DNA of 64,000 nt, from positions 1-64,000 of the forward strand of contig BGKB01000033.1 of assembly GCA_003116975.1 (NCBI GenBank). The letters are read 5' to 3'. Positions 4,163 through 14,209 of this stretch are shown in pieces (positions within the stretch are counted from its first letter, which is position 1; each line of letters starts with the position of its first letter). The translations under genes were made by a program, and so were the position numbers. The stretch comes from Aurantiochytrium sp. KH105. Taxonomy: Eukaryota > Sar > Bigyra > Thraustochytrida > Thraustochytriidae. A model generated the notes under the pieces. The model made no database searches and had not been told where the DNA came from. It was given only the letters and a program-made list of their open reading frames with translations.

Positions 4163-7100
4163 CTACTGGGGAGTCATGGACGGAGACGCGCTCGAATTGA
4201 TTGACCCAGTGGTCTTGCTTCGTACAACTTGTGTTGTGTTGGCAATGACGAGCTGGCACTGTTCGATGATTGTCGTGAACCGCTCTGGCGTCAGCGCGTG
4301 CGTTTCATCCATGATCTGACGAGGGTTGCCTGCCAGGGGCTTGAGAAAGGGATGCTCGCCGATCGCATCCAAAAGAGTGTACGGGTTTGCAGTCTTCTCG
4401 CGCGGGGGCTCTGCGCTCGACATGAGCTTGGCAATGTATGAGGGAGAGCAGAGGCGCGTCGAGAGGGCGAGGCGCAGAAAGAGAAGCGCTGCATCCCGAT
4501 GATGCAGAGGCCGCAATTTCAGGTTGGTCACAGTGTAACCAGGAATGCGGCCGATGCTCTTGGAACTGGTCATGAGGATACAGAGTCCCTCAACCTCGTC
4601 CGAGAGGCGACCCAAAAACGTGCGAAAGCTTGGGTCCTTGCTGTCAATGTTATCGCAGCCACTGAGCAGCAGTAGAAATTTGCGGTACCGCAGAAGCTCA
4701 AAGAGCTGCTCGCGATACACCTCCTCCATGTCCATAGCTGAACTATCGCCTTGGAGGCTAGATGAAGCCGTTTTGAGAGAACGGGTTCCGTGCGCCGGGG
4801 GCGCGCTGTGCGGATCAATTGTGCGATCGCGCAGCTTTTTCACGAGCTCGCTCACGGAACTCATCTCGTTCGCGCGAATGAGAATCGCGCCTTGCGGAAA
4901 GTTGCCGCGGCGCAGTGCGTAATTGACCACAAATGAGGCCAGCGACAGCTTGCCGATACCAGACGTGCCCGTGCACGAAACGATGCGACGGGTCATGATA
5001 GCCGCCAAAAGGTCGTAGGCCTGCACATTGCGGCCAAGAAATTCCTTGGGCAGGGCCGAAGAGACAAAGCTCCCCCACCACAGCCGCCGGCGCTCTTCCT
5101 GCCGCTCCTGGTCCTCGGGAAGACCCGACACTATGGCATCGCCCGAGGGCCAGCGCTTGAGCTCGGCACGTCCGGGGAAAATGGGAACATCGTGGTTGGC
5201 ATCCTTTGGCAGCAAGAGGAACTTGCTCGCTTGTTCAGGGCGGATGCTCGGCGCCATGGAAGCAGCGACGCCTCCGACGCGGGCCTGTTCTTGAGCCCGT
5301 ACAGCCTGGGTGGCCACATCAAAGGCCTTGCGGACCGTCCCTCCAATTGCGAGCTCCAGGTAGAACCATCGAGTGAAGGCTTGCGCAGCCGTATCTTGAA
5401 TGCGCTCAGCAACCTTGACGCAGACTACGTGAGGAACACCGGCGTCGATAAAAGCCTGGCCGGCAAACTCGGAATGGCAGGCAGAGACAAAGGCCAGCTT
5501 CACCTTGGACATCTTGCTGCCGCTCGCGCCGCCCGCCAGGTCGCGGAGCACCGAAGTAGCAACGGGCCGCGCACCTCCAATCTGGTCTTCAAAGAGGAGC
5601 GCGTCGCGGCTACCATGACCCGAGTAGTGGATCGCACGACTGCGCAAGGTCACCTCGGAGCGAAGACGATCCATAGTCGCAAAGCCAAACGAGAGATTGA
5701 TGTCGCGCTTTGCATCTTGAAAGGTCTGCATCAGCATATGGCGCTCCGCCTCGTACTCAATGCTTGCACAAGCCATCGGCTGACCATCCGGCCCAAAGTG
5801 CACCAAGGGGATGGAAAACAAAACGCTCAAACGTGGGCGAAAGCCATCACGTTCGTCCTGAATCATGTCGTGCACGATTGGGTTCATCATAACGTCTCCA
5901 TTGCCGGAGCCCGAGAGGGAAAGACCGCCTCCGCCTGTCGGAGACGGGTTTGCCCACGCGTCCGGGCTGTCGAAGCTTCCCGATGGGCTCGAGAACGAGG
6001 GGTCCATATCCCACGACGGGAGCGCGCTTGCCGAAGACCATTGCTGCTGCTGCTGGAGGCCTTGAGATCGCGCGCGGTTTACACCAATGAATTCGGACTT
6101 GGCGCGTTCCAGAAGCTCGCGCTTTTCCCTTGCACGAAGCGCCTCAGCCCAGATCCGACGCGAGCTTCTCACCGTCTCGTCAATAAGGTCGCGATCTGAC
6201 TGACGCAGACCCTTGCATCCATGGAGACCAATGTAGTGAGGGCAGCTCATGCGAAGCGCAAGGCAAATCTCCTTGCCAGCGACCTCGCCGAGCATGTTCT
6301 CGCTGAGATCGAGCTCCTGAAGATGCGTCCCCCTTTCCAGCAGCTCCACAACGGCGCACACCAAGACGTTGTCGCCCGAAAGACGGCAGCCGCCAAGACC
6401 GAGCGCGCGCAGGCGCGAGTCCGGGGTGGCGATGCGGCGCAACAATGCGCTGGCCGCGCGAGAGCCAATGGGCATGTTACCCATGTGCAGCTCATGCAAG
6501 GTACCTGGGCAGGACTCCGAACCGAGCAGCGGCTTGCCCTCATCGCTAAAGAGGGTCTGGAACATCTTGGTCGGGAAACCAAGAACCGCGTTGTTCGAAA
6601 GGTCAATGCCGCGCACAGCCCAGTCCTCGGTGGAGGCGGTGGAAATCGCATCGAGCACCGCGGCGCAGTGCGCGTCCGTCAGGTTGTTACCACTAAGATC
6701 GAGCCACCGTACGCGCAATTTGGGCGGCAACGCGGAGCCTTCGTGGTGCGATGTGGGCGGCTGCAGCAAATGCAAGATGGGGTTAAGGTCACGACCGGAA
6801 AGACCGCTTTCGCGAATGGAAAGGCCCGCAAGGCTGAGGGATATTGTGCGCCGCGTGAGAATGGCCTTGGCAATGAGGGCCACGTCCTTCCCGCGGCAGA
6901 GAAGGTTGTCGAACGTGAGCCATTGCACGGTATCAGGAAGAAAGCGGACAAGCTTGGCGAGCACCTTGGTGTCAATCCGCTGATCTCCGTCTGTAGGTCC
7001 AATGAGAGTGAGCGAGGTGATACTGGGGAAGCGACGCAGGCAGTCCAAAAGGTTGTCGAAAAAGTGCTCGTTGGAGCACTTGGTGCACTCCCGCACACAG

Positions 7101-14209: not shown

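Follow-up and report, generated by a model that had tools for sequence, protein, structure and literature searches.

A CHAT domain with an intact His/Cys dyad on one chain with SPRY, armadillo and leucine-rich repeat regions and a degenerate nucleotide-binding domain in a thraustochytrid

What does a giant open reading frame (ORF) of the thraustochytrid Aurantiochytrium sp. KH105 encode, and is its product an NLR-like sensor armed with a protease, as an original prediction made from the letters alone had proposed? The ORF (3348 amino acids, stop included; 4163..14209, minus strand) is an uninterrupted single frame in the 64,000-nucleotide stretch analysed here, which covers positions 1 to 64,000 of contig BGKB01000033.1 (assembly GCA_003116975.1) and is hereafter called the window. 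The window protein is real, conserved and unusual, and it belongs to a CHAT-STAND family with swapped sensors. By profile, alignment and predicted fold, it was shown to carry a CHAT domain in which the His and the Cys of the dyad are both intact. From the N- to the C-terminus, its domain order is SPRY, armadillo-like repeats (ARM), leucine-rich repeats (LRR), CHAT and nucleotide-binding domain (NBD).

The CHAT domain and its predicted catalytic dyad

The caspase-clan CHAT domain was assigned to residues 2790-3017 (5159..5842, minus) by profile, sequence and fold. The significant CHAT profile match that the original prediction had proposed as a check was obtained: PF12770 scored 36.8 bits on residues 2740-3060 against a cut-off of 24, and 35.7 bits in the genome search, although it was unlisted when the whole 3348-residue chain was scanned. 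Fold comparison likewise placed this part of the protein with the CHAT/caspase fold.

The predicted catalytic His2865 (motif HYSGHG; codon 5615..5617, minus) and the predicted nucleophile Cys2911 (motif SACHSE; codon 5477..5479, minus) both sit where they had first been placed. In an active-site alignment of 20 proteins, comprising the window protein and the relatives P0003, P0004 and P0005-P0021 described below, the Cys2911 column holds Cys in all 20, the window protein included, and the His2865 column holds His in 19, with a gap in P0021. Taken together, dyad, profile and fold support the protease part of the original prediction well, as a predicted activity.

Sensor modules on a single reading frame

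Three putative sensor regions precede the CHAT domain, and on them too the earlier domain reading holds. The SPRY domain (residues 692-794; 11828..12136, minus) has RanBP9 and RanBP10 as its closest solved relatives by sequence. It is followed by an armadillo-like α-solenoid at about residues 1200-2140 (7790..10612, minus), interrupted at about 1304-1389 and 1665-1841 by inserts of low confidence, and by leucine-rich repeats of the RNase-inhibitor/NLR type at about residues 2380-2680 (6170..7072, minus). Whole-chain NCBIfam and PADLOC scans of the window protein returned no family, and NCBIfam on five pieces of it gave a single meaningless match (recN, 10.1 bits).

The own genome, as searched, comprises 76 Mb on 367 contigs, where the two contigs found for each CHAT locus are read as two haplotypes. 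The whole frame is also present in the second haplotype. Over residues 514-3348, 27.5 nonsynonymous and 166.5 synonymous changes separate the two haplotypes, giving a nonsynonymous to synonymous ratio (pN/pS) of 0.054. By segment, the nonsynonymous and synonymous counts are 0 versus 9 for CHAT (2786-3020), 1 versus 19 for LRR, 1 versus 13 for SPRY and 1 versus 20 for the NBD, the last again indicating purifying selection. Residues 1-513 (12671..14209, minus), a low-complexity and fast-evolving N-terminal part as judged from the haplotype comparison, show a pN/pS of 0.84 and 51 gap positions, four of which stem from the edge of the fetched stretch. This part is loosely constrained and evolving almost freely; its frame is nevertheless kept, since all eight internal indels (both end gaps left out) are multiples of three. 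Within residues 1-560, Met occurs only at 1, 35, 74 and 78, and the start codon is uncertain.

Relatives with the same full design

A protein search that scored 2645 candidates returned three proteins at E up to 0.001. P0002 (2837 aa), from the thraustochytrid stramenopile Hondaea fermentalgiana, is 100% identical after rounding over the searched part and starts near window residue 515. Its NCBI name, "Ran-binding protein 9, partial", covers the SPRY domain only and is misleading. P0003 (2233 aa) is above cut-off for SPRY, Arm, LRR, CHAT, NACHT and NB-ARC, and P0004 (2710 aa) for Arm, LRR, CHAT, NACHT and nSTAND1, its SPRY region being recognised by alignment only. The one-chain claim of the original prediction is upheld, as P0003 and P0004, which come from other contigs, keep the order (SPRY-)ARM-LRR-CHAT-NTPase. 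Judged by these sequences, the whole chain is conserved well beyond one species. A further search with P0003 found two of 7996 scored candidates, P0003 itself and P0034; having missed P0002 and P0004, it is insensitive and no measure of rarity.

A nucleotide-binding domain with degenerate Walker motifs

The C-terminal region (residues 3057-3324; 4238..5041, minus) is assigned as a STAND/AP-ATPase-like NBD with a helical domain, and is predicted to be folded like CED-4/Apaf-1. It remains under the profile cut-offs for NB-ARC (22.2 versus 23.5) and NACHT (13 versus 26.7), and the NB-ARC match above cut-off named in the original prediction was thus not obtained. Of the P-loop and Walker residues claimed there, Lys3087 stands, whereas Asp3186 is not the Walker B residue. 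At the end of Walker A (4946..4951, minus), Lys3087 is kept and the Thr/Ser is replaced by Leu3088, and the true Walker B position is occupied by Ser3183 (4661..4663, minus), with loss of the Asp. Among the 20 aligned proteins, the Lys is present in 19 (Arg in P0004), the Ser/Thr in 19 and the Asp in 19, the window Leu3088 and Ser3183 being the respective exceptions to the latter two. All three residues are complete in 18 of the 19 relatives of the window protein. In the Asp3186 column, three residues past the Walker B Asp, these 19 have Asn (13), Ser (2), Asp (2), Glu (1) or His (1). The replacements are not a slip of a single assembly, because P0002 shares the Leu and the Ser and the second haplotype is identical at both positions.

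Read from the alignment, the window NTPase is without both Mg2+ ligands while the protease dyad is kept and the NBD is still under purifying selection. Separately, the Lys-to-Arg change in the P-loop of P0004 may be a second independent sign of NTPase decay with the dyad staying in the SPRY-ARM-LRR-CHAT type.

CHAT-NBD relatives in other organisms

A profile search scored 7999 candidates, of which 29 had E up to 0.001; they include 17 strong CHAT-NBD relatives (P0005-P0021). Nine of the 17 carry oomycete names, and for four a source gives the name SH2 domain-containing protein. Ten proteins, nine of the strong relatives plus P0034, were scanned with Pfam. SH2 was over the cut-off in P0007, P0008, P0011, P0013 and P0017, just under it in P0006 and P0021, and weaker in P0014 and P0020; the scan of P0034 gave no SH2 and showed tetratricopeptide repeats (TPRs) instead. 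What we take to be the SH2 arginine motif was found in L010, a CHAT locus of the own genome described below, and in the nine SH2 proteins checked, with a looser pattern for P0020. The SH2 design of L010 is, by sequence features, common to oomycete proteins among P0006-P0021. Compared to the window protein, the CHAT-NBD core of these oomycete CHAT-STAND-SH2 proteins (P0006-P0021) is 26-31% identical to the window piece, but they carry a C-terminal SH2 in place of the N-terminal SPRY-ARM-LRR and their Walker motifs are intact.

CHAT-STAND proteins were also seen in bacteria and archaea, with five prokaryotic loci among 369 pattern matches. In the Anaerolineae locus L026 and the Theionarchaea locus L027, CHAT is likewise followed by the NBD (32% identity in the best segment), whereas the sensor is a C-terminal TPR-like part, and no SPRY, ARM or LRR was noticed in them on reading alone. 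P0034 (1351 aa, Phytophthora fragariaefolia) has the order CHAT-NACHT-TPR, which reading of the sequences also suggests for L026 and L027. In a 930-aa ORF of Nostoc (L030), Ser near residue 367 replaces the predicted catalytic Cys. In viral contigs a pattern matched 26 stretches, and no relative is encoded in any of them.

The tree of the CHAT-NBD core, built from 27 rows with four of the five prokaryotic loci (L028, with no ORF of 500 aa, was left out), is weakly resolved with long branches, and neither the eukaryotic rows nor the SH2 forms are united. Since neither grouping is rejected by the approximately unbiased test (p-AU 0.195 for the eukaryotic and 0.345 for the SH2 grouping), we draw no claim of origin from this poorly resolved tree.

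CHAT genes in the same genome and neighbouring genes

PF12770 matched ten places in the own genome, which form five allelic pairs, and eight of the ten are over the cut-off. Four of the loci are non-separase CHAT loci, namely the window gene, L009, L010 and L012. L009 (positions 2001-5393, contig C194, allele on C2) is receptor-like, with a hydrophobic N-terminal segment, EGF (26.1 versus 24.3), a predicted transmembrane helix, CHAT (63.4 bits) and an NBD (NB-ARC 21.1, under the 23.5 cut-off). Its cysteine-bearing ectodomain contains an EGF repeat, and CHAT and NBD lie on the predicted cytosolic side, as marked by a crude hydropathy scan that also marked one segment inside the L010 NBD. If true, a surface receptor with its own caspase-like protease would be striking.

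L010 (positions 3243-6164, contig C121, allele on C20) combines CHAT (53.1) and a P-loop domain below the NACHT cut-off with a C-terminal, presumably STAT-like, SH2 domain (24.9 versus 21) that carries an FLIR motif. L012 (positions 2496-5339, minus, contig C15, allele on C256) is divergent: its CHAT scored 34.7 on the whole ORF and under the cut-off in the genome search, a large low-complexity insert separates the His and Cys motifs, a possible coiled coil follows CHAT, and the profile scan of the ORF gave no NBD match. Between haplotypes, the CHAT pN/pS is 0.03 for L009, 0.09 for L010 and 0 in both His/Cys-motif segments of L012, and that of the L010 SH2 is 0.03. The fifth pair, L024 (positions 2-6016, contig C200, allele on C97), is a separase with Peptidase_C50 at 259.2 bits and an internal SAP domain (43.9) that is, to our knowledge, unusual in separase.

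The strongest NACHT matches of the genome (G000), at 52.1 bits, lie outside the CHAT places, at C59:196119-196655 and C88:195603-196139, in frames of 1871 and 1795 aa. Around the window gene, the ten neighbouring ORFs scanned with Pfam belong to the tubulin-tyrosine ligase, TruD, DEAD helicase, adaptin, FAD-binding, LRR, B-box/IQ and transposase families, and two are without a family. The transposase gene (DDE_Tnp_4) is at 22546-24024 (minus), and the ORFs at 33240-36854 (minus, 1204 aa) and 19875-22508 (plus, 877 aa) gave no Pfam match at E up to 0.001.

Proposed function and alternative explanations

The function that we favour, with slightly better than even likelihood in our judgement, is that of a signal-triggered CHAT cysteine protease. 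SPRY, ARM and LRR would either keep a partner bound or recognise a ligand, which would free CHAT and allow several chains to cluster through the NBD; ATP hydrolysis would not be the driving force of this step in the window copy. Clustering might activate CHAT, as the analogy of the SAVED-CHAT filament, which is called activated in its PDB title, suggests, and the activated CHAT would then cut a cellular substrate. If fungal CHAT-NLRs and bacterial CHAT systems are a guide, the outcome might be regulated death or another irreversible switch, and the protein might have a role in defence or programmed death.

Several results temper this reading, and most of them weigh against a defence role. ATP hydrolysis by the window NBD is doubtful, because the Walker A Thr/Ser and the Walker B Asp are both replaced. 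The "NTPase switch" of the original prediction is weakened by the loss of both Mg2+-binding positions, although the predicted fold and purifying selection are retained. A scaffold, with or without bound nucleotide, is the more likely role of the NBD, since ATP hydrolysis would not power clustering in this copy. The window gene has one locus per haplotype and CHAT copies are few, and the gene-family expansion that the original prediction had suggested looking for did not appear on a large scale, with four non-separase CHAT loci. Gasdermin PF04598 gave no match in the own genome, in a search with no positive control that is inconclusive for microbial gasdermins; the Pfam families of ten neighbouring ORFs include no evident partner; and neither SPRY nor LRR showed a diversifying signal between the two haplotypes, which is a weak test.

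Low copy number and the lack of a diversifying signal fit a housekeeping role at least as well. A regulated, separase-like protease, in which SPRY, ARM and LRR choose the substrate and one protein is cut in cell division, cytoskeleton or development with no role in immunity, is a serious rival, although we place it clearly below even likelihood. The single locus per haplotype, the strong purifying selection on SPRY and LRR, and the fact that P0003 and P0004 conserve the entire chain all agree with it, as does the order of solenoid then protease, for separase is a helical solenoid with a C-terminal caspase-fold protease. However, a genuine separase lies elsewhere in the genome and the window protein lacks a Peptidase_C50 match; separases are not known to have LRRs of the NLR type or an AP-ATPase-like NBD. 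It is unlikely that the protein is instead a RanBP9-like scaffold whose CHAT serves as a binding platform without protease activity. The best SPRY match (RanBP9/10), the NCBI name of P0002 and the already degenerate NBD point that way, but Pfam scans gave no LisH, CTLH or CRA, and a dyad that no aligned protein lacks, except where the column is gapped, is not expected of a dead enzyme. That several genes were read as one ORF is extremely improbable: high G+C raises the chance of long open frames and constraint is weak in residues 1-513, yet the whole frame is open in both haplotypes, and a single chain carries SPRY through NBD, or the corresponding stretch, in two other proteins and in P0002, a partial record that starts at about residue 515.

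Comparison with known systems

Beyond the signal-triggered protease that we favour for the window protein, we tentatively suggest a broader possibility, to which we give well under an even chance, that stramenopiles possess "one-chain apoptosomes". These would join CHAT to an NBD resembling that of CED-4/Apaf-1, perhaps with prokaryotic ancestors, and would have swappable sensors (SPRY-ARM-LRR, EGF ectodomain, SH2 or TPR) and a non-hydrolysing scaffold as the window NTPase; SPRY-ARM-LRR would sense inside the cell, EGF across the membrane, and SH2 phosphotyrosine. If true, protists would have an equivalent of death receptors and inflammasomes that unites receptor, switch and caspase in a single polypeptide. 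If active, the family would show that protists combine a receptor with a caspase-like protease in one chain, its sensors being exchanged as modules, and would open regulated proteolysis and cell death to tests in culturable thraustochytrids, which are transformable. The public record naming this gene Ran-binding protein 9 would be corrected as well. No description of CHAT-STAND proteins of thraustochytrids or oomycetes was found among the listed matches in openly licensed literature.

Apaf-1 and CED-4 recruit a separate caspase through CARD, whereas the window protein has its caspase-like domain on the same chain and has lost the Mg2+ ligands. LisH, CTLH and CRA regions define RanBP9/10; the window protein has the SPRY domain, but RanBP9 identity was rejected, as none of the three appeared in the Pfam lists (whole chain at E up to 1; six pieces at E up to 5). 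Separase identity was rejected on the missing Peptidase_C50 match, the separate locus L024 having 259.2 bits.

The best solved relative of the window CHAT-NBD core, by sequence and by fold, is the SAVED-CHAT protease of type III CRISPR (PDB 8tl0), which shares the CHAT fold and the His/Cys motifs, the match spanning only the CHAT part of the window protein. Unlike the window protein, it carries a SAVED domain, according to the excerpted text of PMC11417357. Coral and human TPR-CHAT proteins (TTC28 type), whose genes are expanded in corals, also place helical repeats before CHAT, but have TPR in place of SPRY-ARM-LRR, and the architecture described in the excerpt of PMC12314368 is without an NBD.

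As far as the excerpted text of PMC10197012 goes, NLRs have an N-terminal effector, a NOD and C-terminal sensor repeats, an order that the window protein reverses, with SPRY and repeats first and the NBD last. The label "NLR-like" therefore calls for caution, and a standard NLR was rejected on this domain order. The same excerpt describes fungal CHAT proteases fused to STAND NTPases and thought to cut gasdermins (PMC10197012). With a caspase-related CHAT and a STAND-type NTPase on one chain, as here, these fungal CHAT-bearing NLRs are the nearest described logic.
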